From positions 2,542,001 to 2,606,000 of the forward strand of contig NZ_CP017990.1 in assembly GCF_002208095.1 (NCBI RefSeq): 64,000 bases of DNA. The letters are read 5' to 3'. Positions 39,933 to 63,940 of this stretch are shown here, one piece after another. Position 1 is the first letter of the stretch; each line of letters starts with the position of its first letter. Source of the stretch: Enterobacter cloacae complex sp. ECNIH7 (lineage in GTDB: Bacteria > Pseudomonadota > Gammaproteobacteria > Enterobacterales > Enterobacteriaceae). The notes beneath the pieces were generated by a model. That model did not search any database. It was given only the letters and a program-made list of their open reading frames with translations, and was not told where the DNA came from. The translations under genes and the position numbers were made by a program.

Positions 39933-39947
39933 TGAAGACACGGACGC

Positions 39948-40759: not shown

Positions 40760-40763
40760 TAAT

Positions 40764-40785: not shown

Positions 40786-40817
40786 TTATCCTGAGCTTCT
40801 TATCAAGGAGAAACAAG

Positions 40818-41659: not shown

Positions 41660-41677
41660 AAGCAATGGAATCGCCCC

Positions 41678-41715: not shown

Positions 41716-41745
41716 GAGCGCTAATCATACCAGCAGGAATACGCC

Positions 41746-44303: not shown

Positions 44304-44319
44304 ACACACAAGGAACGAT

Positions 44320-45318
44320 ATGAAACTTTGGCTATCGGGTTTGGCACTTCTGGCGGTCACCTCCACCGCGCAGGCTGAGAATTTCCGCATCGTGCAGTCT
44401 CCTGCGCAGAAGCTGGATATCTGGATCGACAACATCAAAGACAACACGCCGCAGAGCTGGTGTAAGCCAGAGGTGGCGCTGCGCATTGTGGCGAATGGTA
44501 AGAAAGACGTCTCCGTGCTGGAGAACTTTGTGCCGCGTCTTGGCTCCCTGCTGGAACACCAGTGCAGCAAAGTGAATAAGCTTAGCTGGACGCTCAACGA
44601 TCCGGCGGGTACCACGCTGGCGCAGGGTACGGCAGGCAAAGCGCAGGACTGGGCGCTGGTGGTGAAACAGGAGCAGGCCGCGCCTGCTGCGACCGTCACC
44701 GCAACCCCAGCCAGCGGCGCGCTGCTGCCGCCGGACCAGAACGTGGCTTCCCGCACCGTCGCGGCTGACCGCACGCCGTGGCAGGAATTTACCCTGCAGG
44801 ACGGCTGCCACCTGCGCACCTTCTGGGAAGGGGGCGCTTCCGCTCCGGCGCTCTTTATTCCGGATTCTGACACCACCCGCTGCGGTAACGGCAGCTGGCT
44901 GAGCGGACACACCGTGGTTTCGCAGTCCCGCAACGGCGGACAGAAAGAGATGGCGGTGACCTACATTCATGGCTTCCCGGTGACGGGTCTGAATCAAAGC
45001 GCCGATCCGGAAAACGCGCTGATCACCTCCGTCAACAAAGAGCGCATGGTATTCAGCACGCCAAACAGCGACCAGAGCTGGATGATTCTGCCTTACGATA
45101 GCGCCCTGAACAGCTGGAAAAGCAATGGCACCGTAGCGGTGGAGATCTCCCGTGAAATTGCCAGCGACGATGCAAAACTGCAGGCGCGTATTGCGGCGGT
45201 GAAAAAAACCTGGAGCGCCTGGGTTGCACCCGGCACTCCGCTGAATATCGTTCTGATTGACACCCTGCGTCCTCAGCTGCGCGACCCGGCCGTCGGCGCA
45301 TGGCGCGCGGCGAATTAA
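44320..45318 (+). CDS. exported T6SS-cluster protein of unknown function
   Basis: A 332-residue protein with a clear signal peptide (MKLWLSGLALLAVTSTAQA). The mature part has cysteine-containing blocks (SWCKPEVALRIV, HQCSKVNKLSWTL, DGCHLRTFWEGG, TTRCGNG) suggesting two disulfides and a beta-rich periplasmic fold. I cannot assign it to a named Tss or Tag family. It lies between pppA and tagJ in the core operon with AAGGA before the ATG, so a periplasmic accessory role, for example in sensing or wall contact, is plausible. The frame extends upstream into pppA, but those residues are a shadow. Confidence 0.82.
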   Translation: MKLWLSGLALLAVTSTAQAENFRIVQSPAQKLDIWIDNIKDNTPQSWCKPEVALRIVANGKKDVSVLENFVPRLGSLLEHQCSKVNKLSWTLNDPAGTTLAQGTAGKAQDWALVVKQEQAAPAATVTATPASGALLPPDQNVASRTVAADRTPWQEFTLQDGCHLRTFWEGGASAPALFIPDSDTTRCGNGSWLSGHTVVSQSRNGGQKEMAVTYIHGFPVTGLNQSADPENALITSVNKERMVFSTPNSDQSWMILPYDSALNSWKSNGTVAVEISREIASDDAKLQARIAAVKKTWSAWVAPGTPLNIVLIDTLRPQLRDPAVGAWRAAN

Positions 45319-45327
45319 GGAGTGTCT

Positions 45328-46140
45328 ATGAATACGCTCTATCAACACCTGGCGGGCGAGTCGCTCAGCGATGCGCTGGCGCGCCTTGAAGCTGAAATCA
45401 AAGCCCGTCCGGCAGATGCCGACCTCCGCGCCGCGTTCGTGCAGTTTTTAACCCTCAGCGGCAACTGGACGCGCGCGCTGACCCAGCTGAAAAGCTGGCT
45501 GGCGCTGAAGCCTCAGGCGAAGCCCACCGTCACGCTGCTGGAGCAATCCATTCAGGGCGAACTGCAGCGCGCGCAGGTGATGGCGGGACAGGCGCGTCCG
45601 GCTATGCCTGAAACCCAGTGGCCGTGGCTGACGACCCTGGCCTCGGCGCTGAGCGAGGAGGGCGAGCGCGCCCGGGCGCTGCGTCTCGAAGCCCTCGATC
45701 GGGCTGAGGCCAGCGCCGGCCAGATTATCCTCGAAAACGAGGAGACGCAGGCGTTTGACTGGCTGATGGACGGTGATGCCCGTCTCGGCCCGGTCTGCGA
45801 AACCATCGTGAACGGCCGTTATTTCTGGCTGCCGTTCAGCGCCATCGCGGAGATCCGTTTCCAGGCACCCGCCAGCGTGACCGATCTGGTCTGGCGTCAC
45901 GCGCTGGTGCGCCTGACCGACGGTACGGAGCAGGTGTGTCAGATCCCGGCGCGTTACCCGTTTGCTGCCGATGCCACTGATGCGGTCAAATTAGGCCGCA
46001 CCACCGAATGGCAGCCGCTCGACGAAGACGGCACTCTTTACGAAGGCAGGGGCCAGAAGGCCTGGCTGAGCGAGCAAAGCGAATACCCGCTGCTGTCATT
46101 AAGCCTCGTGACGTTTGCGACGGATGGAGCCGATGAGTAA
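45328..46140 (+). CDS. tagJ: T6SS accessory protein TagJ (ImpE)
   Basis: A 270-residue ImpE/TagJ (HsiE) protein. The helical tetratricopeptide-like N-terminal half (ALARLEAEIKARPADADLRAAFVQ, WTRALTQLKSWLAL) is followed by a conserved C-terminal domain (FDWLMDGDARLGPVCETIVNG, WLPFSAIAEIRFQ). In other bacteria TagJ binds the N-terminus of TssB and modulates ClpV-dependent sheath turnover. AAGGAG lies five bases before this ATG; a GTG two codons earlier is less likely. It overlaps tssE by eight bases. Confidence 0.92.
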   Translation: MNTLYQHLAGESLSDALARLEAEIKARPADADLRAAFVQFLTLSGNWTRALTQLKSWLALKPQAKPTVTLLEQSIQGELQRAQVMAGQARPAMPETQWPWLTTLASALSEEGERARALRLEALDRAEASAGQIILENEETQAFDWLMDGDARLGPVCETIVNGRYFWLPFSAIAEIRFQAPASVTDLVWRHALVRLTDGTEQVCQIPARYPFAADATDAVKLGRTTEWQPLDEDGTLYEGRGQKAWLSEQSEYPLLSLSLVTFATDGADE

Positions 46141-46696
46141 TCCCGCTGGCGAAGGCGATCTGCTGCGCAGCGGCTGGCAAGCCCGCAGCAGGCAGGAGAA
46201 GGTGGGGGCGCGTGACAAAATGCAGCCCTCGCTGCTGGATCGTCTCACCGATAACGACCCGGAAAAAAAACGCGAGTCGGCCAACAGCAATCTGATCACC
46301 CACGCCGCCCTGCGCCGCAACGTCCTGCGCGATCTGCAGTGGCTGTTTAACACCATCAACCACGATGCCTCCGGCGACTTGAGCGCCTTGCCGCACGTGA
46401 GGCGCTCGGTGGTCAACTTCGGCGTCGCGCCGCTGGCCGGGAAAAGGATGTCGGATATCGAATGGCACGACATTCAGCGCAAGCTCACCGAGGCCATCAT
46501 CAATTTTGAGCCGCGCATTTTGCCGCAGGGGCTGCAGGTCCGCTGCGTGTCGGATACCTCCTCGCTGGATCTGCACAACGTGCTTTCCATCGAGATCAAA
46601 GGGCGTCTGTGGTGTGTGCCGTACCCGCTGGAGTTTCTGTTTCGTACCGATGTCGATCTGGAAAACGGCCATTTTGAACTGAAAGATGCGGGGTAA
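46133..46696 (+). CDS. tssE: T6SS baseplate protein TssE
   Basis: A 187-residue gp25-like TssE. Family motifs are SLLDRLTDNDPEKKRES, VRRSVVNFGVAPLAGKRMSD and the conserved EFLF-type ending PLEFLFRTDVDLENGHFEL. It connects baseplate wedge and sheath. It starts inside the tagJ stop region (ATGAGTAA); an in-frame ATG three codons earlier (46124) is possible. It is followed two bases later by tssF. Confidence 0.94.
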   Translation: MSNPAGEGDLLRSGWQARSRQEKVGARDKMQPSLLDRLTDNDPEKKRESANSNLITHAALRRNVLRDLQWLFNTINHDASGDLSALPHVRRSVVNFGVAPLAGKRMSDIEWHDIQRKLTEAIINFEPRILPQGLQVRCVSDTSSLDLHNVLSIEIKGRLWCVPYPLEFLFRTDVDLENGHFELKDAG

Positions 46697-46698
46697 TC

Positions 46699-48570
46699 AT
46701 GGAAAGTAAACTGCTCGAATATTACAACCGCGAGCTGGCCTATCTGCGCGAAATGGGGGCCGAGTTTGCCGAACGCTACCCAAAAGTCGCCGGACGGCTG
46801 GGCATGCGCGGCATCGAAGTGGCGGACCCGTATACCGAACGTCTGATGGAGGGCTTCGCCTTCCTGACCTCCCGCGTGCAGATGAAAATGGACGCGGAGT
46901 TTCCGCGCTTCTCCCAGCGTCTGCTGGAGATGATTGCCCCTAACTATCTCGCGCCCACGCCGTCGATGGCTATCGCGGAGATTGAGCCCGACAGCAGCCG
47001 GGGCGATCTGAGCAAGGGCTTCATTGTGCCGCGCGGCACCATGATGGACAGCCTGGCGCTGAAAAAAACCGGCGTGACCTGCAGCTATACCACGGCGCAC
47101 GAGGTCAACCTGCTGCCGCTGAAAATCGACAAGGTCGAGCTGGGCGGCGTGCCCGCCGATCTGCCGCTGGCGCAGCTGGGGCTGAGCCAGCGGCAGATCG
47201 GCAGCGCCTTAAGGATCCGCATCGCCTGCGACGGCCCGCAAAACCTCGGACACCTGGATTTCGACCGCCTGGAATTTTTCCTCGGCGGTCCGGATATTGA
47301 AGCGCTGAAGCTGCTGGAGCTGGTGATGGAGCATCACGCCGGGATCGTCTGCCAGACGGTCAGCCCGCAGCCGCAGCGACAGCTGCTGGCGTCGGACGCG
47401 CTGCGCCAGGAGGGCTTTGAGCCTGACCAGGCTCTGCTTCCCGACGATCTGCGCAACTTTGACGGCTACCGCCTGCTGCAGGAGTATTTCGCCTTTCCGG
47501 CCCGCTTCCGCTTCATCAGCCTGAGCGGTCTGGGCACGCTTATCGAACGCTGTGAAGGCGAAAAAGCCTTCGACATCTTCATTCTGCTGGATAAGTCGGA
47601 TGAACAGCTGGAGCGCGTGGTCGATGCCAGCCATCTGGCGCTGCACTGTACCCCGGTCATCAACCTTTTCCCAAAGGTCGCGGCGCGTCAGAAGCTGAAT
47701 GAAGGCCAGCATGAATACCATCTGGTGGTCGATAACATTCGTCCTCTGGATTATGAAATTTACGCGGTCAAAAAAATCTATGGCAGCGCGGACGGCCAGC
47801 GCGATGACCAGACGTTTCGTCCATTCTGGAGCACCTGGAGCGGTGATGCGGGCAACTACGGGGCCTATTTTTCCCTGCGCCGCGAACAGCGCGTGCTGTC
47901 CGAGCACGCCCTGCGCTACGGCACCCGTACCGGCTATATCGGTTCAGAGGTGTTTGTTTCGCTGGTGGATGAACAGCACGCCCCGTGGCAGGAAAACCTG
48001 CGCTATATCTCTGCCGAGGTGCTCTGCACCAGCCGCGACCTGCCGCTGATGCTGCAGCAGGAGCTCGGGCAGTTCATTATGGCCGATTCTATGCCGGTGA
48101 AATCCCTCACCCTGCGCAAAGGCCCGACGCCGCCGCGCCCGGCGCTGGCGGAAGGGTTCAGCACCTGGCGGCTCATCAGCCAGCTGCAGATGAACTACCT
48201 CAGCCTGATGGACAGCGAAAACGAAGACGGCGCGGCCGCGCTGCGCCAGCTGTTAGGGCTGTACGCCAACCTGGCAGAAACGCCCGTTGCGCGTCAGGTG
48301 GAGGGGGTACGCCACTGCGTGCTGGAGCCGGTTCACCGCCGCGTGCCTGAACCCGGCCCGGTCGTTTTCGCCCGCGGGATCGGCATCACCCTGACGGTGG
48401 ATGAGCGAGCCTTTTCCGGCGCCAGCCCGTGGCTTTTCGGCAGCGTGATGGAGCGCCTCTTTGCCCGCCTGGTATCCATCAATAGCTTTACGGAGTTCAC
48501 CCTGAAAAGTCAGCAGCGCGGCGAGATTGGCTACTGGGCGCCGCGCATGGGTAAAAGGGCGCTGATATGA
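46699..48570 (+). CDS. tssF: T6SS baseplate protein TssF
   Basis: A 623-residue TssF (VasA/ImpG). The N-terminus LEYYNRELAYLREMGAEFAERYPK and FPRFSQRLLEMIAPNYLAPTPSM are diagnostic, and the C-terminal SINSFTEFTLKSQQRGEI is typical. With TssG, TssE and TssK it makes the baseplate wedge. Its stop overlaps the tssG start by four bases. Confidence 0.96.
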   Translation: MESKLLEYYNRELAYLREMGAEFAERYPKVAGRLGMRGIEVADPYTERLMEGFAFLTSRVQMKMDAEFPRFSQRLLEMIAPNYLAPTPSMAIAEIEPDSSRGDLSKGFIVPRGTMMDSLALKKTGVTCSYTTAHEVNLLPLKIDKVELGGVPADLPLAQLGLSQRQIGSALRIRIACDGPQNLGHLDFDRLEFFLGGPDIEALKLLELVMEHHAGIVCQTVSPQPQRQLLASDALRQEGFEPDQALLPDDLRNFDGYRLLQEYFAFPARFRFISLSGLGTLIERCEGEKAFDIFILLDKSDEQLERVVDASHLALHCTPVINLFPKVAARQKLNEGQHEYHLVVDNIRPLDYEIYAVKKIYGSADGQRDDQTFRPFWSTWSGDAGNYGAYFSLRREQRVLSEHALRYGTRTGYIGSEVFVSLVDEQHAPWQENLRYISAEVLCTSRDLPLMLQQELGQFIMADSMPVKSLTLRKGPTPPRPALAEGFSTWRLISQLQMNYLSLMDSENEDGAAALRQLLGLYANLAETPVARQVEGVRHCVLEPVHRRVPEPGPVVFARGIGITLTVDERAFSGASPWLFGSVMERLFARLVSINSFTEFTLKSQQRGEIGYWAPRMGKRALI

Positions 48571-49610
48571 GTGACGCTGCCACTGCACCGCTGCGCGTGC
48601 ATCGCCTGACCCGGCTGCCGGACGCGTTCTGGCAAGGGGTTCGCGAGACGCCCTGGCGCTACGATCTGTTTCAGCTGTTAAGGCGCATTGATGCCCAGGG
48701 CGGCGAGCGCTACCCGCTGGGACGCGCGCCGCTGCCGAAATTTGAGCCGCTGCGCATCGGCCAGCAGCCGTCGATGAGTTTTGCGCCGTCGACGCTGGCT
48801 CAGGTACGCCAGCGCGAAGAAAGCGGGCTGCACGAGGTGTCTATCCTCAGCTTCGGTCTGTTTGGCCCGAACGGCCCGCTGCCGGTCCACATGACCGAAT
48901 ACGCCCGCGAGCGTATTTATCATCATCAGGACACCAGCCTCAGCGCGTTTGCCGATCTGTTCCATCACCGCCTTGCGCTGCTGTTTTACCGCGCCTGGGC
49001 GGATGCGCAGCCGGCCGTCTCTCTGGACCGCGCCGACAACAGGCGCTTTGAGGGGTATCTGGCATCGCTGATTGGCATGGGCCAGCCGGGGCAGATGAAC
49101 AAAGGCAGCCTGAGCTCGCATGCGCGATTTACCCACGCCGGACACCTGACCCGTCACGGGCGGGATCCGGAGGGGCTGGAGAAGATCCTGCGCAGCTATT
49201 TTAAAGCGCCGGTTAAGCTGGTGAGCAACGTGCCGCAGTGGATGCCGCTTTCCGAGCGCGAGCAGGCGCAGCTTGGCGCAGGACGCCGCATGCCGCGCAT
49301 GGGGGAGTCCGCGTTTCTCGGCGTCGCCGTCCGCGACGTGCAGCACAAGTTTCGCATCGAAATTGGCCCGCTAAGCGCGGAGGAGTACAACCGCTTTCTG
49401 CCGGGTGAAGCGTGGGTCACCGAGCTGCGCGACTGGGTGCGCCAGTACGCCGGGATTGAATTTGAATGGGAAACGCGGGTGATCCTGCGTGAAGACGCGG
49501 TGCAGGGCACCACGCTCGGCAGCAATGGGCGATTAGGCTATAACACCTGGCTGGGCCTTCAGCCGCAGCCTGTCCCGCGTGGCGATCTGGTGTATCGCGC
49601 AGAGCGGTAA
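48567..49610 (+). CDS. tssG: T6SS baseplate protein TssG
   Basis: A 347-residue TssG (VasB/ImpH). Recognisable blocks are YDLFQLLRRIDAQGGERYPLG, ILSFGLFGPNGPLPVHMTEY, FADLFHHRLALLFYRAWADA and the C-terminal LGYNTWLG. It forms the baseplate wedge with TssF in a TssF2-TssG complex. It is translationally coupled to tssF (ATGA). Confidence 0.96.
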   Translation: MSDAATAPLRVHRLTRLPDAFWQGVRETPWRYDLFQLLRRIDAQGGERYPLGRAPLPKFEPLRIGQQPSMSFAPSTLAQVRQREESGLHEVSILSFGLFGPNGPLPVHMTEYARERIYHHQDTSLSAFADLFHHRLALLFYRAWADAQPAVSLDRADNRRFEGYLASLIGMGQPGQMNKGSLSSHARFTHAGHLTRHGRDPEGLEKILRSYFKAPVKLVSNVPQWMPLSEREQAQLGAGRRMPRMGESAFLGVAVRDVQHKFRIEIGPLSAEEYNRFLPGEAWVTELRDWVRQYAGIEFEWETRVILREDAVQGTTLGSNGRLGYNTWLGLQPQPVPRGDLVYRAER

Positions 49611-49648
49611 TCCTTCCGTATACCGAATCATTGTTAATGGAAACTAAC

Positions 49649-52264
49649 ATGTCAGAAATTAGCCGTGCCGTGCTTTTCGGCAAACTGGATACGCTGTTAT
49701 TTACCTCTCTGGAAAGCGCCACTGCGTTCTGCAAGCTGCGCGGCAACCCGTACGTTGAGCTGGTGCACTGGCTGCATCAGCTGATGCAGCAGCAGGATGG
49801 CGATCTGCAGCAGGTCATCCGCCACTTTGCCCTTGATGAACAGCAGCTGACGCGCGATATCGTTGCCGCGCTGGACGTCCTTCCGCGCGGGGCGAGTTCC
49901 GTTTCCGATCTTTCTGAACATATCGACAGCGCCGTGGAGCGCGCCTGGGTTTTTGGATCGCTGAAGTTTGGCGTCAGCCGTATTCGCGGCGGCCATTTGC
50001 TGATCGGCATGCTGAAAACCTGGAACCTGGCCAACGTGCTGAAAAGCATCTCGTCGCAGTTCACCCGCCTTAACGTCGAGGTGCTGATTGAGCAGTTCGA
50101 CGCTATCTGCGCCAACAGCAAAGAGACGCAGCAGGCCGCTGCCGCCGCAGACGCACCGGCGGGTACGGTACCGGCGGCGCAGGGGACTCTGGCCCAGTAC
50201 GGCCAGGACCTGACGGCCCGCGCCCGCGAAGGGAAGATTGACCCGGTTGTCGGGCGCGACGAGGAGATCCGCCAGATGGTGGATATCCTGATGCGTCGCC
50301 GTCAGAACAACCCGCTGCTGACCGGAGAAGCCGGGGTCGGGAAAACGGCGGTGGTGGAAGGGCTGGCGCTGCGTATCGCCGACGGCGACGTCCCGGAGCC
50401 GCTGCAAAATATTCAGCTGTGGCTGCTGGATATCGGCATGCTGCAGGCTGGCGCAGGCATGAAAGGCGAGTTCGAGGCCCGTCTGCAGGCGCTCATTAAT
50501 GAAGTCCAGTCCAGCGCCACGCCAATCATTCTATTCATCGATGAGATCCACACCCTGATTGGCGCAGGTGGCCAGCAGGGGACCGGCGATGCGGCGAACC
50601 TGCTGAAGCCTGCCCTGGCGCGCGGACAGCTGCGCACCATCGGCGCTACCACCTGGGCGGAATACAAAAAGTACATCGAGAAAGACCCGGCGCTGACCCG
50701 TCGTTTCCAGACGGTGCAGGTCCACGAGCCGGACGAAGCGAAAGCCATTCTGATGCTGCGCAGCACCGTGTCGCCGCTGGAGACGCACCACCAGGTGCTG
50801 CTGCTCGACGAAGCGGTCAGCGCAGCGGTGAAGCTGTCGCATCGTTACATCCCGGCGCGTCAGCTGCCGGATAAAGCCGTTGCGCTGCTCGACACCGCCT
50901 GCGCCCGCGTCGCGGTCAGCCAGAGCGCGCCGCCTGCGCAGCTGGAAGACTGCCTGCGCCATCTTGCCGCGCTGGACGTTGAGATTGAGATTGCTGAGCG
51001 CGAGGCGCGCGTGGGAGCCGGTGACGCCGATCGTGCGACCGCTTTACTCGCCGAACGTGACGCGTGTGAAACAAAACGCGAAGCCCTGGCCCGGCGCTGG
51101 GAAGAAGAGCGCAGCCTGGTGCAGGAGATTATCCGCCTGCGCGCGGCGCTGTTCGCGGCGGGCGATGAGGATAGCGCTGAGCTGCGTAGCCAGCTGGCGG
51201 AACGGCAGCAGGCGCTGAACGCCCTGCAGGGTGACGAGCCGCTGCTGTTTGCGGCGGTGGATGAAAACGTCGTTGCCGCGGTGGTCTCTGACTGGACCGG
51301 GATCCCGCTGGGCCGGATGGTGAAAAATGAGATCGACGCGGTGCTCAACCTCGCCGACACGCTCAACCAGCGCGTTATCGGCCAGCGTCATGGTCTGGAC
51401 CTCATTGCCCGCCGCGTGAAAACCTCGCGTGCGAAGCTGGACGATCCCAACAAACCGGTGGGCGTCTTTATGCTGTGCGGCCCGTCCGGGGTCGGTAAAA
51501 CTGAAACCGCGCTGGCGCTCGCCGAGTCTCTGTACGGCGGCGAGCAGAACGTTATCACCATCAACATGAGCGAGTTCCAGGAAGCGCACACCGTTTCCAC
51601 CTTAAAAGGTGCGCCTCCGGGGTACGTAGGGTATGGTGAAGGTGGCGTGTTGACCGAGGCCGTCCGCCGCCGTCCGTACAGCGTGGTGCTGCTGGACGAA
51701 ATTGAAAAAGCGCACCCGGACGTCCACGAGATCTTCTTCCAGGTCTTTGATAAAGGCTGGATGGAAGACGGCGAGGGGCGCCACATCGATTTCCGTAACA
51801 CCATTATTATCCTGACCTCCAACGTCGGCACCGAACTGATTAGCGCCATGTGCGCCGATCCGGAGCTGATGCCGGAGCCTGACGCGTTAAGCGGCGCCCT
51901 GCGCCAGCCGCTGCTGGAGGTCTTCCCACCGGCGCTGCTGGGCCGCCTTCTGGTGGTGCCGTACTACCCGCTCAGCGACGAGATGCTGGGGCAGATTGTT
52001 CGCCTGCAGCTCAGGCGCATTCAGCGTCGTCTGGAAGAGAATCACAGCATTATTTCTGAGTTTGACGACAGCGTGGTGGAACAGATTGTTCAGCGCTGTA
52101 CCGAGGTGGAGTCCGGCGGCCGCATGGTGGATGCTATTCTGACCAACACCCTGCTGCCTCAGATGAGCCAGATCTTACTTACCGCCAGCCGCAGCGACGA
52201 GCAGTACCGACGTCTGCACGTCACCTGCGAGCAGGGCGAGTTTCACTGTCAGTTTGCCGCGTAA
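49649..52264 (+). CDS. tssH: T6SS ATPase TssH (ClpV)
   Basis: An 871-residue ClpB/Hsp100-family unfoldase that recycles contracted TssBC sheaths. The ClpN domain (about 1-150) binds TssC. AAA1 has Walker A GEAGVGKTA at about 226, and the coiled middle domain (about 440-530) is short, as in ClpV. AAA2 has Walker A GPSGVGKTE at about 611 and Walker B VLLDEIEKAHPD. The start MSEISRAVLFGKLD was chosen over two in-frame upstream codons because homology begins here, with GGAA eight bases upstream. Confidence 0.96.
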   Translation: MSEISRAVLFGKLDTLLFTSLESATAFCKLRGNPYVELVHWLHQLMQQQDGDLQQVIRHFALDEQQLTRDIVAALDVLPRGASSVSDLSEHIDSAVERAWVFGSLKFGVSRIRGGHLLIGMLKTWNLANVLKSISSQFTRLNVEVLIEQFDAICANSKETQQAAAAADAPAGTVPAAQGTLAQYGQDLTARAREGKIDPVVGRDEEIRQMVDILMRRRQNNPLLTGEAGVGKTAVVEGLALRIADGDVPEPLQNIQLWLLDIGMLQAGAGMKGEFEARLQALINEVQSSATPIILFIDEIHTLIGAGGQQGTGDAANLLKPALARGQLRTIGATTWAEYKKYIEKDPALTRRFQTVQVHEPDEAKAILMLRSTVSPLETHHQVLLLDEAVSAAVKLSHRYIPARQLPDKAVALLDTACARVAVSQSAPPAQLEDCLRHLAALDVEIEIAEREARVGAGDADRATALLAERDACETKREALARRWEEERSLVQEIIRLRAALFAAGDEDSAELRSQLAERQQALNALQGDEPLLFAAVDENVVAAVVSDWTGIPLGRMVKNEIDAVLNLADTLNQRVIGQRHGLDLIARRVKTSRAKLDDPNKPVGVFMLCGPSGVGKTETALALAESLYGGEQNVITINMSEFQEAHTVSTLKGAPPGYVGYGEGGVLTEAVRRRPYSVVLLDEIEKAHPDVHEIFFQVFDKGWMEDGEGRHIDFRNTIIILTSNVGTELISAMCADPELMPEPDALSGALRQPLLEVFPPALLGRLLVVPYYPLSDEMLGQIVRLQLRRIQRRLEENHSIISEFDDSVVEQIVQRCTEVESGGRMVDAILTNTLLPQMSQILLTASRSDEQYRRLHVTCEQGEFHCQFAA

Positions 52265-52288
52265 TAATCATCAAGAGAACTGTAAAAG

Positions 52289-53707
52289 ATGACGGATAAT
52301 GATAACAATCGGACTGTCCCAAACGCGCTCCCGGTCGGGTACCGCTTCAACGAGTTTGAAATCAAAGAGGTGATCGGCGGCGGCGGTTTTGGCATCGTCT
52401 ATCGCGCGTGGGATCACCAGCTCGAACGCACTATCGCTATCAAAGAATTTATGCCTTCCTCGCTCGCCGTGCGCGGAGACGACATGACCCTTGTGCTGCG
52501 CAGCGAGCGCTTTGGCAAAGCGTTTTCCGCAGGCCTGAACAGCTTTATTCAGGAAGCCCGTCTGCTGGCGCGCTTTAACCACCCGAACCTGCTGCACGTC
52601 CTGCGTTTCTGGGTGCAAAACGACACGGCCTACATGGGGACGCTGTTTTACAGCGGCACCACGCTGTCGCGCCTTCGTGAAGAAAAGCCGGAGCTGATCA
52701 ACGAGGCCTGGATCCGCCGCACGCTGCCGATGCTGTTCGGTGCGATCAAGACCATCCACAACGAAGGCTATCTGCACCGCGACATCTCTCTGGATAACAT
52801 TCAGATTCAGGATAACGGCCTGCCGGTGCTGCTTGATTTCGGCTCCGCGCGCCGCACCATCGGTAACCTCTCCGACGAAACGGAAACCATGCTGCGCCCG
52901 GGCTTTGCGCCGATCGAGCAGTACACCGACGACAACGAAAGCGAGCAGGGCCCGTGGACGGATATTTACGCCCTCGGCGCGGTGCTGCGTACCCTGATTG
53001 TGGGCTCTCCGCCGCCGGTCAGCGTGGTGCGCTCAATTCAGGATACCTGCAAACCGCTGGTGGAAATCATGCCGCAGGGCTATTCCATTCCGCTGCTCCA
53101 GGCCATCGACCGCGCGCTGGCGCTGCACATGGAGGACCGTCCGCAGTCCATCGACGAGTTCGCCGCGCTGATTGAGATGCCGGTCGCCGGTATCAACGAC
53201 GTGCTGACGGCGAAAAAGCCCGGCACGATGCTGGTACCGGTGGAAGAGGAACAGCCGGCTTCGCTGCTCGACTGGCGCCGCTACAAGATCCCGGGCATGG
53301 TTGCCGCAGGCGTGTTGGTCGGCGTTGTCGCCGGGGCGATGCTGTTCAGCAGCGGTAATGATGCTCCCGAGCAGGCTGCACAGCCACCGGCAGAGACGCG
53401 TCCGACTGAAACCGCCGCTAACACGCCGGACGTGAAGCCGGAAACGGCGAAGGTTAACGAGCAGGCGACGGCCCAGCAGACTCCGCCGCCTGTCGAGAGC
53501 CCTGTTGCGCTGGTCTATATCCGCATCCTCGACGGCGAAACGCTGAAAGTGAACGGCGAGCCAAAAGCGCTGCGTCCGGCGACCAACGGCTATGCATCGC
53601 TCAAGCTGCCGGCCGGTGAGGTGAAGATTGAACTGCAGGGCAACGGAAGAACGCGTGGCCAGACGCTGGATATCACCAAACCGGGCACCTGGCTGGTGAA
53701 CCCTTAG
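52289..53707 (+). CDS. PpkA-like T6SS serine/threonine kinase
   Basis: A 472-residue Hanks-type kinase. The glycine loop GGGGFGIVYRAWD, the lysine in IAIKEFMP, the catalytic loop YLHRDISLDNIQI and DFGSARRTIG are intact in the cytoplasmic domain (about 25-290). One membrane helix (about 333-352, GMVAAGVLVGVVAGAMLF) and a Pro/Thr-rich linker lead to a periplasmic beta domain (about 410-472). It probably phosphorylates TagH to trigger firing and is opposed by PppA. It lacks the large Pseudomonas PpkA periplasmic region, so its input signal may differ. Confidence 0.9.
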   Translation: MTDNDNNRTVPNALPVGYRFNEFEIKEVIGGGGFGIVYRAWDHQLERTIAIKEFMPSSLAVRGDDMTLVLRSERFGKAFSAGLNSFIQEARLLARFNHPNLLHVLRFWVQNDTAYMGTLFYSGTTLSRLREEKPELINEAWIRRTLPMLFGAIKTIHNEGYLHRDISLDNIQIQDNGLPVLLDFGSARRTIGNLSDETETMLRPGFAPIEQYTDDNESEQGPWTDIYALGAVLRTLIVGSPPPVSVVRSIQDTCKPLVEIMPQGYSIPLLQAIDRALALHMEDRPQSIDEFAALIEMPVAGINDVLTAKKPGTMLVPVEEEQPASLLDWRRYKIPGMVAAGVLVGVVAGAMLFSSGNDAPEQAAQPPAETRPTETAANTPDVKPETAKVNEQATAQQTPPPVESPVALVYIRILDGETLKVNGEPKALRPATNGYASLKLPAGEVKIELQGNGRTRGQTLDITKPGTWLVNP

Positions 53708-53772: not shown

Positions 53773-56358
53773 ATGCTCAACCGAATTACCGTTCAGCTCC
53801 CGGTGGAGGGGCTTCTGTTCTGGAAACTGACGGGCCGCGAGGCGATGTCCGAGTCGTTTGCGCTGACGCTGACCGTGCTCGGCACGGACGCGCGCATCGA
53901 CCGCAGTAAGCTGCTGGGCCAGCCGGTCACGGTGACCATCCCGACGCAGAGCCTGCTGACGTCCCGCTATATTAACGGCAAGATTACCCGCGTGGCGGTC
54001 AGCGCCGTCGAGCTGACGGGCACCCGCTATGCGGTGTACCAGCTGACGGTGGAGCCGGACCTGTGGCCGATGAAGCGCGACCGTAACCTGCGTATCTTCC
54101 AGGGGCAGACGGTGCCGCAGATTGTGAAAACCCTGCTGGGTGAGCATCAGGTCAACGTTGAGGATAAACTCACCGGCAGCTACCGGGTGTGGGACTACTG
54201 CGTGCAGTATCAGGAGTCGAGCCTGGACTTCATCAGCCGCCTGATGGAGCTGGAGGGGATTGCCTATCACTTCCGCCACGAGGCAGACAAACACACCCTG
54301 GTACTGACCGACGCTGCCACGCAGCATCAGCCGTTCAGCGGCTATGAGGTCATTCCTTACCACCAGACGCCGTCCGGCGGCAGTACGGACGAAGAGGGCA
54401 TCAGCCAGTGGGCGCTGGAGGACAGCGTAACGCCGGGGATTTACAGCCTCGACGACTATGACTTCCGCAAGCCGAACGCGTGGCTGTTCCAGGCCCAGCA
54501 GAACCCGGCGTCGCCGAAGCCGGGCAGCATTGACGTGTACGACTGGCCGGGGCGCTTTGTGGACAAAGGCCACGGGGAGTTCTATGCCCGTATCCGCCAG
54601 GAGCGCTGGCAGGTTGAGCATCAGCAGATTCAGGCCACCGCCACGGCGGCGGGGATTGCGCCGGGCCACACCTTCACCTTAACCAACGCGCCGTTCTTCA
54701 GCGACAACGGCGAGTATCTGGTGACGGCGGCGGGTTACCACTTCGAAGAGAACCGCTACGCCAGCGGCGAGGGGGAAACCATTCACCGAACCGATTTTAC
54801 GGTCATCCCGTCGGCGGTGGTGTACCGTCCGGCGCAGACCACGGCGTGGCCGCGCACCTACGGCCCGCAGACCGCGAAGGTGGTGGGGCCGAACGGTGAG
54901 AGTATCTGGACGGACAAATACGGCCGCGTGAAGGTGAAGTTCCACTGGGACCGCCTGGCGAAGGGGGACGACACCAGCTCCTGCTGGGTGCGCGTGTCGA
55001 GCGCGTGGGCGGGCCAGGGCTACGGCGGGGTGCAAATCCCGCGCGTCGGCGACGAGGTGGTGGTGGACTTTATCAACGGAGATCCGGACCGTCCGATTAT
55101 TACCGGTCGCGTGTACAACGACGCGAGCATGCCGCCGTGGGCGCTACCGGCCGCGGCGACGCAGATGGGCTTTATGAGCCGCACGAAAGACGGTTCCGTC
55201 GACAACGCCAACGCCCTGCGCTTTGAGGACAAGGCGGGCGCAGAGCAGGTGTGGATCCAGGCCGAGCGCAACATGGACACCAGCGTTAAGAACGATGAAA
55301 CGCACAGCGTCGGCGGGGCGCGCAGCCATTACGTGAAGAAAAATGAACTGCATCGCGTGGAAGCGAACCAGACTCAGGCCGTGAAAGGTGGAACCGAGAT
55401 CCTGACGGGGAAAGGCAAGCTGGACGCGGCGGTGGAGCAGTACGTTATTGCTTCCGGGACGAAGCTGCGGCTGGTCTCCGGTGAGAGCGCTATTGAGCTG
55501 AATGCTAACGGCAAGATTAACCTGATCGGCAAAGAGTTTAACTTCTTCGTGGAAGGGGATGGGTATATCACCACGGGCGGTAAGCTGCATCTGAATACCT
55601 CTGGCACCAAGCCGGGCACAACGGCGCCGGGATCAGGGCATAAAGGGGATATTGATGCGGCGGTGCAGGCGAAGTTTTCACCGCAAGAGAGCGCTAGTCG
55701 TCCTGCCCCTGCTGCGGCTCCAGCAGCAGGCCAATCGAAACCTGCTCCAGCTTCGGCGTCAACAACAGCCCCGCCTTTGAAAGGGAATTATGTTTATAAA
55801 AATAATCCGAATAGCTCAGACGTTATGCCTTTCAATGATGATGTTGTTAAACAAATCAACAAGTCACCGACCCTTCAAACTCAGCTAAAAGATTTGAAAG
55901 ACAAGGGATGGGCGATTCAACCAGGTGCGACTGGAGGGGGAAGTTATACTGATTCGGATAATAAACTGATCGTTATGGATCCCGAACACATGGAAGACAC
56001 GGCCAATACAGTACAAACACTGGCTCATGAAGCAGGGCATGCAACATATCCTGTTGCAGCGGACTATTCTAGTAAAGAAAATTTCGTTAACAGCCAGCTT
56101 ATGGATGAAGGTGGTGCAACCTTGAATAATATCAAAATACAGCGTGAAATTCTGGGAAATGGCGGTATTGATATTGATATAGCAGGAAGCCCGGAAAATC
56201 TCAAAGCTTACAATGCAGCCTATGATAAAATGGTAAATGGAGAGCTGTCGCGGGTTGACGCTGCAAAAGCTATAGGTAAAGTCTACGGTAAAGGCGAAAT
56301 AGCTTCGGGTACCGATCTCAATTACAGCGATTATTACGGGGGCTTCTATGGTAAGTAG
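53773..56358 (+). CDS. vgrG: evolved VgrG with C-terminal zinc-metallopeptidase domain
   Basis: An 861-residue spike protein. Residues 1 to about 470 are the gp27/gp5-like VgrG core (RDRNLRIFQGQTVPQIVKTLL, VKVKFHWDRLAKGDDTSSCWVRVSS, GVQIPRVGDEVVVDFINGDPDRP), then the DUF2345-type beta-helix to about 625. A Pro/Ala/Ser linker (about 635-670) leads to a roughly 190-residue C-terminal domain with HEAGH (His752, Glu753, His756) and a probable third ligand in DEGGA (Glu779), the gluzincin pattern. DNA from about 55,690 is much lower in GC and uses different codons, so the effector tip was probably acquired. An exported small protein follows directly and is the likely immunity protein. Confidence 0.92.
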   Translation: MLNRITVQLPVEGLLFWKLTGREAMSESFALTLTVLGTDARIDRSKLLGQPVTVTIPTQSLLTSRYINGKITRVAVSAVELTGTRYAVYQLTVEPDLWPMKRDRNLRIFQGQTVPQIVKTLLGEHQVNVEDKLTGSYRVWDYCVQYQESSLDFISRLMELEGIAYHFRHEADKHTLVLTDAATQHQPFSGYEVIPYHQTPSGGSTDEEGISQWALEDSVTPGIYSLDDYDFRKPNAWLFQAQQNPASPKPGSIDVYDWPGRFVDKGHGEFYARIRQERWQVEHQQIQATATAAGIAPGHTFTLTNAPFFSDNGEYLVTAAGYHFEENRYASGEGETIHRTDFTVIPSAVVYRPAQTTAWPRTYGPQTAKVVGPNGESIWTDKYGRVKVKFHWDRLAKGDDTSSCWVRVSSAWAGQGYGGVQIPRVGDEVVVDFINGDPDRPIITGRVYNDASMPPWALPAAATQMGFMSRTKDGSVDNANALRFEDKAGAEQVWIQAERNMDTSVKNDETHSVGGARSHYVKKNELHRVEANQTQAVKGGTEILTGKGKLDAAVEQYVIASGTKLRLVSGESAIELNANGKINLIGKEFNFFVEGDGYITTGGKLHLNTSGTKPGTTAPGSGHKGDIDAAVQAKFSPQESASRPAPAAAPAAGQSKPAPASASTTAPPLKGNYVYKNNPNSSDVMPFNDDVVKQINKSPTLQTQLKDLKDKGWAIQPGATGGGSYTDSDNKLIVMDPEHMEDTANTVQTLAHEAGHATYPVAADYSSKENFVNSQLMDEGGATLNNIKIQREILGNGGIDIDIAGSPENLKAYNAAYDKMVNGELSRVDAAKAIGKVYGKGEIASGTDLNYSDYYGGFYGK

Positions 56359-58609: not shown

Positions 58610-58640
58610 AAAGGGCCAGCATGGATTGGCCTTTTTGTTT
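58610..58640 (+). terminator. intrinsic terminator between VgrG island and Rhs module
   Basis: AAAGGGCCA, an 8-base loop, TGGCCTTTT (one G-U) and TGTTT tail. It separates the VgrG effector block from eagR-rhs and suggests a separate promoter or partial read-through for the latter. Confidence 0.75.
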
Positions 58641-58670
58641 CTCACAATATTAATCATCCCGAGTTCACTT

Positions 58671-59111
58671 ATGAAATACACACTCCAGGAAGGTTCGTTT
58701 TCCCTTTTTCCTGCTGCCTGGCAGGATAACAGCATGAATATTATTCGCGATGACGAAAGCGGGCTGTCCGTGGTGGTCAGCCGCGGCGTGATTCCCGATG
58801 GCAGCGACTACGAACAAGAGTTTCACCGCCAGTGGGATGTGCTGCGTCCTCAGATGGGTGAAATTGCCCAGAGCGAATTCCGGAACGTAAAAGCCGGGCC
58901 TGACGGAAAAATTAACGGGCTGGAAGTTGAGACCACCTTTGACCGTAACGGGCAGCGCCTGTGGCAAAAACAGCTGGCCGTTCAAACGCCGGGCAAACCG
59001 GTATTGATGATTTTTACCCTCTCGGCACTCAGAGCCTTTACCGAAGAGGACGAGGTGCGCTGGAGCGCGCTTAAGCAGAGTCTGACGCTAAACGACAACC
59101 GGAATGTGTAA
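58671..59111 (+). CDS. EagR-type Rhs chaperone (DcrB/DUF1795 family)
   Basis: A 146-residue protein of the DUF1795/DcrB family (MKYTLQEGSFSLFPAAWQDNSM, SVVVSRGVIPDGSDYEQEF, KPVLMIFTL). EagR proteins bind the N-terminal membrane helices (prePAAR) of Rhs effectors to keep them soluble and mount them on VgrG. The next gene, three bases away, is exactly such an Rhs with two N-terminal hydrophobic regions. An in-frame start 15 codons upstream lies in the terminator region and is unsupported. Confidence 0.88.
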   Translation: MKYTLQEGSFSLFPAAWQDNSMNIIRDDESGLSVVVSRGVIPDGSDYEQEFHRQWDVLRPQMGEIAQSEFRNVKAGPDGKINGLEVETTFDRNGQRLWQKQLAVQTPGKPVLMIFTLSALRAFTEEDEVRWSALKQSLTLNDNRNV

Positions 59112-59114: not shown

Positions 59115-62100
59115 ATGAGCGATAACAACGCGGCCCGTAAGGGCGACGAGATTATTCACTCCAGCATTTTTGCTGACATCACCAGCATTGTGGCGGAAGG
59201 TGCCGCCTATGCTGTGATCGGCGCGGCGGTAGGCGCAGCTGCAACCGTAGCGGCGCCATTGCTGGGCGCAGGGGCGGCCGCAGCGGGCGTGGCGGCAATA
59301 GGATCCAGCTGTCTGTTAAGCGGGATTATCGGTGGCGTGCTGGCGAACGTGGCGGGTATTACCGACGATATTAGCAACGCCGCTGAGGGGTTAGGCAATG
59401 CGCTTTTCCCGCCTTCGCCTGCGGGTAAAATCACTACCGGTTCCAGTAACGTTCTCACCAACGCAATCCCCGCCGCGCGCGCGGCAGGCACGCTGACGCC
59501 CGCCGATACGCCGTCTCCTGAGCCGCAGTCGCCGGGCAGTTTTGCCGATTACGCGGGCATGCTGCTATCCGCCGCCGGACAGTTTGGTAGCGAAATGTGG
59601 CAGCCGAGCGTGGCCTCTGCCGCCGCGGGAACCTCGCCGCTGGAAGAAGACAAGGTGGCGTGTGAAAAGCACTCCGGACCGCAGTATCTGGCGGAAGGCT
59701 CTAAAAGCGTCTTTATCAACGGGCAGCCTGCGGTGCGTGCCAAAGATCGCACCACCTGCGAAGGCACAGTTTCCGACGACGTCTCCCCGAACGTGATCAT
59801 CGGCGGCGACACGCTCACGGTCCGCGATATCAAAAGCGGTAAAACGCCGGGTCTGGCGCTGGGGATGATTGCGCTCTCCCTGCTGCGCGGGCGTCCGGGC
59901 AAGATCCTGAAAAACATGCCCTGCGCGCTGGCGGCAGCCGGCGGCGGGATGCTGGCCGATATGGCGGTGAATGCCGTGTTTGGCTCCTCGCACCCGGTTC
60001 ACGCCGCCACCGGCGTGAAGGTGCTGAATGACGACGACGAGCTCGACTTCTCGCTGCCGGGGCGCTTTCCGCTTCGCTGGCAGCGCAGCTACAACAGCCT
60101 GACCACCCGCGAAGGGCTGTTCGGTCTGGGTTGGGCAACGACCTTTGACAGCTATCTCACGCTGGAGGACAACAACGCCACCTGGTTCGACGAAACCGGG
60201 CGCGAGCTGAGCTTCGAGCTGCCCCCTGTCGACCGCGCGTTTTACAGCATCAGCGAAGGCATTATCATCCGCCGCAATGAGAACGGCGACGTGGCGATTG
60301 CCGACGATGACGGTGCTGTATGGCGTCTGTATAAACCGACCCGGGCGAATCCATCTATCCTGCGTCTGGCCTCCCTCAGCGACGAATACGGCAACGCGCT
60401 GCTGACGGAGTGGGACGAGCACGGCAGGCTGGTTGGTCTTCACGACGAGCCGCGGGCGATAGACGTCACCCTGCGCTATGACGATGAACGTTTCCCGCAG
60501 CGCGTTACCGCTGCCAGCCATTTCGACGGCAGCCATACATGGCCGCTGATGCAGTGGGGCTACGACGCGCGCGGCCAGCTGGCGAGCGCGACGGATGCCT
60601 CCGGCGTGGTGACGCGTGAATACCGCTATAACGAGCACGGGCTGATGGTCTGGCACCGGATGCCGGGCGGTCTGGAGAGCGAATACCGCTGGAAAAAATT
60701 CGACCACTGGCGCGTGGTGGAAAACCGCACCAGCACCGGCGACGGGTGCCGCTTTAGCTACGATTTAGCCGCCGGGCTGACGACCGTTGAGCACTACGAC
60801 GGCCAGACGCGCCGCCACTACTGGAACGCGCAAAACCTGATTGTCCGCTACGTTGACGAGCGCGGTGAAAACTGGCTCTACGAGTGGGACGAGAACGAGC
60901 TTCTGACGCGTCGCATCGATCCGCTCGGCAATGCCGTTACCTTCGTCTACGACGACATGGGCAACCGGGTTCAGGAGATCGACCCCGACGGCAATACCCG
61001 CACTACCACCTGGCTGGAGCACCGCGCGCTTCCTGCGGCCATTATCGAAGCCGACGGCAGCGCCACCCGGTTCTGGTACGACGAACATCACGGCCTTAAG
61101 CGCGTGGTGGACCCGATGGGGCAGACGACGCAGCTGCGCCGGGACGCGTTCGGCCAGGTCGTTGAAGAGGTTGATGCCGCCGGAAACAGCCGCTACCAGG
61201 AGTACAACGAGGCCGGGCAGATCGTTCGTTCGACGGACTGTTCCGGGCGTATTACCCGCTACCGCTACCATCCGCTGGGCTGGCTGGTGGCCGAGACTGG
61301 CGCCGACGGGGAAGAGACGCGATATCGCTACGACGCCGCAGGGCGTCCGGTGCAGCTCGACCGCCCGGAAGGCTGGACGGAATCGCTCAAATGGAACGAA
61401 CGTGGCCTGCCGGTGAAGCATGCGGGCGCCGACGGTAAAGAGAGCGAGTTCATATACGATAAGGCGGGGCGCTTAACCGCCACCCGTAATCCTCAGGGTG
61501 AAGAGGTCCGTCGCCGCTGGGACAGCCGCGGGCGTCTGATTGCCCTGGAAAACGAAAACGGCGAAGCGTATCAGTTCCGATGGGGCGCGGACTCGCTGCT
61601 GCTGGAAGAGGTGGGGCTCGATGGCGTAGTCTCGCAGTATCGCTACGACGCATGCGGGCGCACGATAGCACGCACGTTTGCCGCCGGTCATCCGGAGGCC
61701 ATCACCCACGCCTTCGCCTGGAGTGCGAGCGGCCAGCTGGTCGCCCGCACCACGCCGGAGGGGCAGACCCGCTATCACTACACGCCGTCCGGGCTGTTAA
61801 GCCGGATTGGGCTGCATCCTGCGCTTGCAGCCGACGCGTGGACCACCGAGGCAGAGCAGGAGCTTGCCTTTGAGTATGACGCGCTCGGTCGCGTCACGCG
61901 CGAAGCGGGCGAGCTCGGCGAGCTGGCGTGGGAGTATGACGCGCTGGGCAACCGCACCTCCGTCACGCTTCCCGACGGCCGCGAGCTGAAGCAGTTCTAC
62001 TACGGCAGCGGGCATCTGCTCAGCATTGCTCTTGATAAGCTGTCGGTCTCTGATTTTACCCGCGACGAGCTCCACCGTGAGACTAGCCGCACCCAGGGGT

Positions 62101-63458
62101 TGTTGACCACCCGCAGCGAGTACGACCGCCTCGGCCGACTGCACCGCCGGGACGTCTTTACCGGCAATGCGCAGCGCCCGTCGCCGCGCCGCTGGTCCCG
62201 CCGCTGGGATTACGATTACCGCAATAACCTGGTGCGGGAAGAGCGGGACGATAACCCGTTCAGCTGGTACCGCTGGCAGTACGACAGCGCCGGGCGCCTG
62301 CTGGTTCAGGACGGCACGCTGCCCGGCCAGGAGCAGTGGCGCTGGGATGCGGCCGGTAACCCGCTGGAAGGATCTGCTGAGAAGGTCACGCACAACCGCC
62401 TGACGCAGCTGAACGGCATTCGCTGGCGCTATGACATCCACGGCCGCACCGTGGAGAAAGATAACGGCCAGACCCGCTGGCACTACCGCTACGACGGCGA
62501 ACATCGCCTGACGGAGGTCATCAGCCAGCCGCGGGACCGCAATAAACCGCAGACGCAGGTCAGCTTCCGCTACGATCCGCTCGGTCGCCGCATCAGCAAA
62601 ACGCGACGCCAGATGCTGGGCGGACAGCCAACCGGCAAGCCGGTGACAACCCGATTTGTCTGGGAAGGGTTCCGGCTGCTGCAGGAAGTGCACGGGGATG
62701 TGCCGCTCACTTACGTCTACAGCGATCAGGACAGCTACGACCCGCTGGCGCGTATTGACGGCGTGGAAGCGCCGGAGATTTTCTGGTTCCACTGCCAGCC
62801 GAACGGCACGCCGGAGCGGATGACGGATATCGAAGGGCAGGTGCGCTGGGAAGGGGTGAACAGCGCCTGGGGCAAGCTGCTGCGGGAAAGCGAGACGCAG
62901 GTATCAGGATATTCTCAGAACCTGCGCATGCAGGGGCAATACCTGGACCGTGAGACAGGGCTGCACTACAATCTGTTCCGGTATTACGACCCAGACTGCG
63001 GACGGTTTACGCAGCAGGACCCGATAGGGCTGGCGGGGGGGATTAACTTATATAAATATACTGTTAACCCACTTACCTGGATAGATCCTCTGGGTTTAGC
63101 TGGTTGCACTTTAACAAAATCGAAGTCAAAAAATTACGAATACGTTTTGAAATTGAAACGTTCTGAATATCCTGCAACGTTTGGTCACATATCAGACGCG
63201 ATCGATTTAGGACATGCAAAGGTTGTAACAATTCAACGAGGCACTGCGAAAGCTAACAGGAAAACGAGTCTAAAAAATATCAAAACAAAGCCTGGTTATG
63301 ATCGTGATGAATGGCCTATGGCGATGTTTAAAGAAGGCGGTGATGGCGCTAGCGTAAGATATATAGATCCTAGTGACAACCGTGGTGCAGGTTCAAGTAT
63401 TGGTAATGTTTTATCAGAACTGCCAGATGGAACAAGAATAAAAGTCGAGGTAATATAA
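59115..63458 (+). CDS. PAAR-Rhs effector with C-terminal NucA/NucB-type nuclease
   Basis: A 1447-residue T6SS Rhs effector. Hydrophobic region 1 (about 22-82) and region 2 (about 247-292) flank a PAAR domain (about 105-240; GSKSVFINGQPAVRAKDRTTCEG, NVIIGGDTL). The Rhs/YD repeat cage runs to about 1300 and ends with GRFTQQDPIGLAGG and the second motif IDPLGLAG (DP at 1302 and 1324), where such proteins self-cleave. The C-terminal roughly 118 residues carry YPATFGHISDA, DRDEWPMAMFKEGGDGA (Asp1396-Glu1399) and DNRGAGS (1421-1427), the signature of NucA/NucB nucleases of Bacillus. GC falls sharply at the toxin boundary, near 63,045. A ComJ-like immunity gene overlaps its stop by one base. Confidence 0.93.
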   Translation: MSDNNAARKGDEIIHSSIFADITSIVAEGAAYAVIGAAVGAAATVAAPLLGAGAAAAGVAAIGSSCLLSGIIGGVLANVAGITDDISNAAEGLGNALFPPSPAGKITTGSSNVLTNAIPAARAAGTLTPADTPSPEPQSPGSFADYAGMLLSAAGQFGSEMWQPSVASAAAGTSPLEEDKVACEKHSGPQYLAEGSKSVFINGQPAVRAKDRTTCEGTVSDDVSPNVIIGGDTLTVRDIKSGKTPGLALGMIALSLLRGRPGKILKNMPCALAAAGGGMLADMAVNAVFGSSHPVHAATGVKVLNDDDELDFSLPGRFPLRWQRSYNSLTTREGLFGLGWATTFDSYLTLEDNNATWFDETGRELSFELPPVDRAFYSISEGIIIRRNENGDVAIADDDGAVWRLYKPTRANPSILRLASLSDEYGNALLTEWDEHGRLVGLHDEPRAIDVTLRYDDERFPQRVTAASHFDGSHTWPLMQWGYDARGQLASATDASGVVTREYRYNEHGLMVWHRMPGGLESEYRWKKFDHWRVVENRTSTGDGCRFSYDLAAGLTTVEHYDGQTRRHYWNAQNLIVRYVDERGENWLYEWDENELLTRRIDPLGNAVTFVYDDMGNRVQEIDPDGNTRTTTWLEHRALPAAIIEADGSATRFWYDEHHGLKRVVDPMGQTTQLRRDAFGQVVEEVDAAGNSRYQEYNEAGQIVRSTDCSGRITRYRYHPLGWLVAETGADGEETRYRYDAAGRPVQLDRPEGWTESLKWNERGLPVKHAGADGKESEFIYDKAGRLTATRNPQGEEVRRRWDSRGRLIALENENGEAYQFRWGADSLLLEEVGLDGVVSQYRYDACGRTIARTFAAGHPEAITHAFAWSASGQLVARTTPEGQTRYHYTPSGLLSRIGLHPALAADAWTTEAEQELAFEYDALGRVTREAGELGELAWEYDALGNRTSVTLPDGRELKQFYYGSGHLLSIALDKLSVSDFTRDELHRETSRTQGLLTTRSEYDRLGRLHRRDVFTGNAQRPSPRRWSRRWDYDYRNNLVREERDDNPFSWYRWQYDSAGRLLVQDGTLPGQEQWRWDAAGNPLEGSAEKVTHNRLTQLNGIRWRYDIHGRTVEKDNGQTRWHYRYDGEHRLTEVISQPRDRNKPQTQVSFRYDPLGRRISKTRRQMLGGQPTGKPVTTRFVWEGFRLLQEVHGDVPLTYVYSDQDSYDPLARIDGVEAPEIFWFHCQPNGTPERMTDIEGQVRWEGVNSAWGKLLRESETQVSGYSQNLRMQGQYLDRETGLHYNLFRYYDPDCGRFTQQDPIGLAGGINLYKYTVNPLTWIDPLGLAGCTLTKSKSKNYEYVLKLKRSEYPATFGHISDAIDLGHAKVVTIQRGTAKANRKTSLKNIKTKPGYDRDEWPMAMFKEGGDGASVRYIDPSDNRGAGSSIGNVLSELPDGTRIKVEVI

Positions 63459-63940
63459 TGAGTGATAAGAGCATGCAAACAGTAGATCTACTTATTTCGC
63501 ATAGTCAAATATTGTTACGATCCCGAGATTATGACGAAAAGCTGAGTCAGTGGGGAAAAGGCAATGTTTCTCAAGGTGCTGTTCTACACAAGGATTATGT
63601 TATATTCGATCCATTACCAGAGGACGCGTTTGGAGCAAACGTCAATATCAAAAAAGAGAATGCTTTCAAAATGGATGAAAATGCTCAGCGCTGTATTGTT
63701 GTGCCATTTTTCATTACGGATAAAGATAAGCTGCAAATCGCTTCTGCAACTGAGAAATTTGATTTAAATATAGATGTGAACGATAAAGTTTATTCACTCT
63801 TTTATGAGATCTGTGAAGGAGATGAAATTTACTATAATTTCACTCTTGTACCGGCAAAAGAAGCTATTGATGCTAAGTTTTTGCTAGATGACCCTTGGGG
63901 AGGAATAAAAGACCACCCTCTCAAAGAAGGTATTTTTTAA
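63458..63940 (+). CDS. ComJ/Nin-like nuclease inhibitor, cognate immunity protein
   Basis: A 160-residue cytoplasmic protein without signal peptide. DLLISHSQILLRSRDYDEKL, a central WGKGNVSQGAV, CIVVPFFITDKDKLQIASAT and YYNFTLVPAKEA align with the layout of Bacillus ComJ (Nin), the inhibitor of the competence nuclease NucA, by recalled family similarity (ISYHQF, VPFHVTENGIHIES, VPAE). Its ATG shares a base with the rhs stop (TAATG) and GAGG lies seven bases upstream. With the NucA/NucB-type toxin directly upstream, it is very probably the immunity protein. GC is low, like the toxin tip. Confidence 0.85.
   Translation: MSDKSMQTVDLLISHSQILLRSRDYDEKLSQWGKGNVSQGAVLHKDYVIFDPLPEDAFGANVNIKKENAFKMDENAQRCIVVPFFITDKDKLQIASATEKFDLNIDVNDKVYSLFYEICEGDEIYYNFTLVPAKEAIDAKFLLDDPWGGIKDHPLKEGIF

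Follow-up and report, generated by a model that had tools for sequence, protein, structure and literature searches.

A ComJ-family protein as the probable immunity partner of a NucA/NucB-type nuclease borne by a type VI secretion-linked Rhs protein in Enterobacter

We analyzed a stretch of 64,000 nucleotides from Enterobacter cloacae complex sp. ECNIH7 (contig NZ_CP017990.1, positions 2,542,001 to 2,606,000; hereafter the window), close to whose end lie overlapping genes for an Rhs protein with a C-terminal nuclease-like domain and for a small protein of the ComJ family. The two very probably constitute a polymorphic toxin delivered by the type VI secretion system (T6SS) and its own immunity gene, which together form an exchangeable cassette on a common Rhs core. 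This reading is based on the family, PDB and fold matches of both proteins, the presence of all four catalytic residues, the associated chaperone, PAAR and T6SS genes, a matching gene order on the plasmid pBMUL01, a homology breakpoint ahead of the nuclease, the persistence of ComJ genes lacking the toxin in related genomes, and an analogous system in Aeromonas.

The first gene (59115..63458, forward strand) encodes a prePAAR-PAAR-Rhs effector of 1447 residues with matches to the PAAR_motif, DUF6531, RHS and NucA/NucB profiles and 14 RHS repeat stretches. The sequence AARKGDEIIH at residue 6 fits the prePAAR motif AARxxDxxxH as defined earlier (PMC7773334); along with the PAAR domain and a neighboring Eag-type gene, the protein thus has the hallmarks of prePAAR- and Eag-dependent Rhs effectors of the T6SS. 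Residues 1325-1447 (63087..63455, forward strand) form a putative DNase domain of the NucA/NucB (Tox-ComI) type, which was recovered by the Pfam profile PF14040 (DNase_NucA_NucB) with an E-value of 4.3e-8 (34.0 bits; curated cut-off 23.8) and displays the motifs DRDEWP (residue 1396), EGGDGAS (1407) and DNRGAGS (1421). Fold comparison showed that it adopts the ββα-metal fold of Bacillus licheniformis NucB (PDB: 5omt), and an ungapped match to that enzyme showed conservation of its catalytic histidine, aspartate, glutamate and asparagine, the loss of any of which abolished significant activity in NucB (PMC5758888). The domain is 58% identical to B. subtilis NucB. The protein also carries the paired motifs DPIGLA (residue 1302) and DPLGLA (residue 1324), which mark the presumed aspartyl-protease self-cleavage region of the Rhs protein (63018..63101, forward strand); given the part played by such a DPxGLA motif in another Rhs protein (PMC8636562), cleavage would be expected to occur ahead of the toxin.

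The second gene (63458..63940, forward strand) codes for a putative immunity protein of 160 residues belonging to the ComJ/Nin family (PF11033; E-value 5e-18, 65.4 bits, curated cut-off 25). A sequence-level ComJ profile search of the PDB gave no match, and fold comparison did find B. subtilis ComJ (4mqd), whose fold the protein shares. The stop codon TAA of the rhs gene (63456-63458) and the ATG of comJ (63458-63460) have one base in common, and a GAGG ribosome-binding-like site is situated 7 bases ahead of that ATG, the site and the TAATG overlap spanning 63447..63460 on the forward strand. The GC content falls from 63.9% in the core (59115-62990) to 38.4% in the toxin-encoding part (63040-63458) and 36.4% in comJ (63458-63940). 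A preliminary description of this locus, drawn from the sequence alone, had already posited the two frames and their overlap, the PAAR-Rhs context, the nuclease signature, the ComJ/Nin-like character of the next gene and the low GC content of the pair; each of these stands, and the profile checks that it proposed for residues 1325-1447 and for the 160-residue protein both scored above the curated cut-offs. No family of NCBIfam or PADLOC was recovered with either the Rhs C-terminal piece or the second protein. The host genome holds no further ComJ or NucA/NucB match at an E-value of 0.001, the E. coli genomes gave no DNA match and a phage collection gave no ComJ match.

To place the pair in its genus we searched 60 Enterobacter genomes with positions 61600-63458 of the window and obtained some match in 33 of them. 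Apart from the window itself, the Rhs core is present from the very start of the query (query positions 1-3; 87-96% identity) in 23 loci, and in 22 of these the similarity ceases at query positions 1447-1499, with 19 stopping at 1447-1448. The sole exception, in genome G1302, runs through the toxin domain to the end, the domain being 99% identical in amino acid sequence to that of the window. The homology breakpoint, which we take as the toxin exchange point, therefore lies at about 63047 (not assigned to a strand; 22/23 loci), near residue 1311 and between the two DPxG motifs; the left border of 63045 in the preliminary description falls at this very place, where the Rhs homology of the genus mostly stops. 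The locus thus shows the common core with swapped C-termini that typifies Rhs polymorphic toxins.

The distribution of ComJ in the same 60 genomes differs from that of the nuclease: ComJ occurs in seven, and the NucA/NucB domain, at an E-value of 0.001, in two (the window's genome and G1302). The five remaining genomes (G1296, G1298, G1304, G1319 and G1332) have ComJ without the toxin domain, in each case downstream of the Rhs core on the same strand and about 1.5 to 15 kb away from it. In G1298, G1304 and G1332 the final 64-81 bases of the NucB tip remain directly ahead of ComJ. Four of the five toxin-less genes are intact; the copy in G1304, which also has a second, partial copy, contains a stop codon. 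When each of the four intact genes was compared with ComJ of the window, the ratio of nonsynonymous to synonymous substitution rates was 0.09-0.22, a range in which some of the divergence may be older than the toxin loss. Directly 3' of comJ, beyond the window, is a gene on the opposite strand for a GTPase (L002 2018-3112), which we take to be ychF; in G1332, whose Rhs protein bears a different tip, a ComJ gene 95.6% identical to that of the window is likewise followed by a full-length ychF-like gene. This pattern is as expected for an immunity gene that would have been retained after its toxin was displaced. We also observed 3' fragments of the ychF-like gene dispersed near displaced modules in relatives (L166, L167, L168, L170, L159 and L161). 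Incoming toxin cassettes may have brought along a piece of this flanking gene, and such fragments could then serve to order successive replacements.

Upstream of the effector gene the window encodes an Eag-type (DcrB/DUF1795) effector chaperone (58626..59111, forward strand; PF08786 DcrB, E-value 5.5e-19; the Burkholderia counterpart is annotated as DUF1795) and a VgrG spike protein (53773..56358, forward strand; TIGR03361, E-value 3.7e-180) with a C-terminal extension containing HEAGH. These are preceded by a T6SS structural cluster (29846..53707, forward strand) in which Pfam matches of the tested open reading frames (ORFs) identified VasE/TssK, DotU/OmpA, IcmF, ImpA_N, VipB, Hcp, FHA, TssF, TssG, a ClpV-like AAA protein and a kinase. 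Given this cluster, the VgrG and the chaperone on one side and the ychF-like gene on the other, the toxin pair closes a T6SS island. As a separate observation, the VgrG extension resembles zinc peptidases, with a weak match to Reprolysin, and the three genes that follow VgrG (56348-58595) gave no family above cut-off; the extension and these genes are possibly a second effector with its immunity genes.

We propose that VgrG and the Eag chaperone would load the prePAAR-PAAR-Rhs protein onto the spike, with the Rhs shell enclosing the C-terminal domain. Self-cleavage at DPLGLA would then release a small, basic NucB-type ββα-metal nuclease, which is predicted to cut DNA inside a bacterial competitor. 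The acidic ComJ-family protein from the overlapping gene would bind the nuclease and thereby shield the producer and its kin, while the toxin and ComJ together would be exchangeable at the junction near 63047 on a core found across the genus. Secretion, self-cleavage, DNA cutting in victims, and both binding and protection by ComJ are inferred.

Pairings of this kind have been recognized before. Zhang et al. 2012 (PMC3482391) named Tox-ComI/Imm-ComJ, in which the competence nuclease domain is a toxin and ComJ its immunity protein; that class, listed with RHS repeats and the T6SS, agrees with the window in both partners, and the window pair is an individual member that differs from it in nothing of kind. 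In the literature searched this was the only paper to join ComJ either to NucA and Rhs or to an effector and type VI secretion. That literature, which was mostly open-access and did not include bioRxiv, yielded no experiment on a T6SS toxin protected by ComJ. The closest analogue is Rhs2 of Aeromonas hydrophila AH54, described in 2025 (PMC12396204), a T6SS Rhs protein with a predicted NucA/B C-terminus and Mg- or Mn-dependent DNase activity, whose downstream gene, Tsi2, protects prey. The two systems have in common the T6SS Rhs protein, the NucA/B C-terminus and a downstream immunity gene, but Rhs2 is without the PAAR domain seen in the window. PAAR-RhsA-NucA_B of Salmonella, presented as a prediction (PMC11669294), has the same PAAR-Rhs architecture and NucA/NucB tip, but its candidate immunity neighbor is DUF6707 rather than ComJ. 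A NucA/B cargo effector of the T6SS is also listed in PMC9765294. The Rhs DNase of PMC10989746 was set aside as it is a different, VRR-Nuc-related nuclease.

Beyond the genus ComJ is rare: at an E-value of 0.001 it was recovered in 3 of 247 genomes of the order (two above cut-off; the sub-threshold match, L006, was unconfirmed by the iterated profile), in 1 of 349 of the phylum, namely the window's own, in 4 of 398 around a Bacillus center (three above cut-off, the center being one, with L132 under it) and in 1 of 296 around a Chryseobacterium center, which is the center itself. NucA/NucB was found in 4 of the 247 genomes of the order (three above cut-off), and ComJ in 28 of 39 genomes picked for having a NucB relative. 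A protein search with ComJ of the window yielded 152 relatives, the nearest named ones among the 120 listed being from Enterobacter. Searches seeded with the window toxin and its Bacillus relatives provided 80 loci, an uneven sample comprising the best 80 of 308 confirmed; together with plasmid and genome loci these contained 62 matches to an iterated ComJ profile, which were reduced to 37 distinct proteins by removing those sharing their last 100 residues. In 31 of the 37 a NucB-domain ORF lies within 600 bases upstream on the same strand, a count biased by most loci having been found via the nuclease.

An Rhs-NucB tip followed by ComJ occurs in other Pseudomonadota as well. The Rhs part was confirmed with Pfam in Burkholderia (L021) and Pseudomonas (L023), is annotated as RHS in L012, and was assigned on the basis of Rhs-like stretches in truncated or shorter ORFs in Serratia (L022), Pseudomonas (L024), Xenorhabdus (L025) and Comamonas (L026). 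The order VgrG-DUF1795-Rhs-ComJ also recurs in Burkholderia multivorans, on its conjugative plasmid pBMUL01. Pairs linked to a pretoxin-HINT module were Pfam-confirmed in all three cases tested (Mucilaginibacter, Chryseobacterium and Croceifilum), the NucB domains of the first two scoring slightly under the Pfam cut-off; two Prevotella rows received the same label without a Pfam test. Toxin-linked pairs thus occur in Pseudomonadota, Bacteroidota and one Bacillota, and the remaining ComJ relatives are mostly Bacillus nucA-nin and related secreted pairs. DUF6707 directly follows a NucB-type toxin in 4/4 loci tested (L027, L029, L032 and L033; Flavobacterium, Prevotella and Pseudomonas gingeri), and SMI1/KNR4 adjoins one in two of three (L007 and L015, not L014). 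One nuclease family hence seems to be combined with no fewer than three families of immunity protein (ComJ, DUF6707 and SMI1/KNR4). In Prevotella jejuni (L029 2980-5440) two NucB-domain cassettes are consecutive, the first with ComJ and the second with DUF6707. On a Vibrio nigripulchritudo plasmid (L011 981-4480) ComJ is found amid a row of Imm43, SMI1/KNR4 and DUF1629 immunity-type genes, and no NucB-domain ORF was found in this 8.5 kb locus.

The preliminary description had gone further in regarding the pair as the competence couple of Bacillus turned into a weapon. NucA-Nin (ComI-ComJ) of B. subtilis and NucB of B. licheniformis indeed present the same folds, catalytic residues and gene order as the window pair, and this shared order, with the identity to B. 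subtilis NucB noted above, could speak for capture by a proteobacterial Rhs gene. We nevertheless consider such a capture improbable, as maximum-likelihood, midpoint-rooted trees place both partners outside the Bacillus NucA-Nin group. In the nuclease tree (93 rows, labeled toxin or secreted by ORF length with hand exceptions) a 100/98 branch divides 72 secreted rows, 71 from Bacillota and one a Klebsiella plasmid protein on a very long branch, from 21 toxin rows; the window is among the latter and groups with two Burkholderia toxins (99/83). With 112 columns for these rows, many forks of this tree are poorly settled. Its rows omit the short L092, L004, L013 and those from L101 onward except L129 and L130, with identical domains counted once, and L018 is labeled secreted here and toxin in a 49-row non-reversible tree. 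In the ComJ tree (37 rows) a 100/100 branch parts 15 Gram-negative proteins, including that of the window, from 22 of Bacillota. Moreover, two models, the second of which covered 49 of the 93 rows, both keep the secreted nucleases together as a single block, against a spread of toxin-linked pairs over three phyla. The placement of both partners in toxin-linked and Gram-negative groups argues that the window pair is no recent capture from Bacillus. The root of the non-reversible model (49/93 rows) was not used, as it was placed next to one Rhs tip, on a near-zero-length branch.

That the locus might serve competence or DNA uptake in the host has in its favor the family name ComJ alone and can practically be dismissed: it is contradicted by its context, the nuclease being the tail of a PAAR-Rhs protein that ends a T6SS cluster, in a genome lacking other ComJ or NucA/NucB matches. 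In Bacillus, in contrast, the nuclease stands on its own as a secreted or membrane-anchored protein whose N-terminus is hydrophobic; here it is residues 1325-1447 of the PAAR-Rhs protein. It is also very unlikely that the tip is decayed or silent with an inactive nuclease. The tip remnants ahead of ComJ in three relatives do indicate that decay happens at this locus, but in the window the frame is open and fused to the full core, the catalytic residues and the immunity gene are intact, and the domain is nearly unchanged in G1302.

Several observations weigh against a T6SS toxin paired with ComJ as its immunity protein. The toxin is absent beside five of the seven ComJ genes of the genus, which means that the pair is not fixed there, and structural alignment of the 160-residue protein with ComJ of B. 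subtilis gave an identity of only 14%. As of 2017 the mechanism by which Nin inhibits NucA was not known (PMC5758888), and the protection test in Aeromonas may concern something other than ComJ, the family of Tsi2 being unstated in the accessible text. The approximately unbiased (AU) test rejects a single clade for Rhs-linked ComJ (p 0.025) and for HINT-linked ComJ (p 0.0003), and keeps secreted Bacillota ComJ as a possible single clade (p 0.28). The Croceifilum row falls with toxins in the nuclease tree, and the ComJ tree groups it with Bacilli (83/62); given the p of 0.28, the position of this pretoxin-linked ComJ among Bacillota is not firm.

The evolutionary direction may even be the opposite of that in the preliminary description, with NucA-Nin of Bacillus as a domesticated interbacterial toxin-immunity pair, a proposal to which we give slightly less than an even chance. 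Among the sampled rows the Bacillus NucA-Nin pairs are a crown group of Bacillaceae, with toxin-linked pairs in three phyla, and under the midpoint root the secreted nucleases are nested within the diversity of the toxins. A toxin-to-competence direction was suggested by Zhang et al. 2012 (PMC3482391); the midpoint-rooted trees agree with it without proving it.

With the window pair the Tox-ComI/Imm-ComJ class gains a clean member linked to the T6SS, and the retention of ComJ 3' of the Rhs core after toxin replacement offers natural evidence for its role in immunity. It also opens two matters to testing: whether Nin of Bacillus and the ComJ of such weapons would still cross-protect, and which of the two roles, in competence or in conflict, came first.
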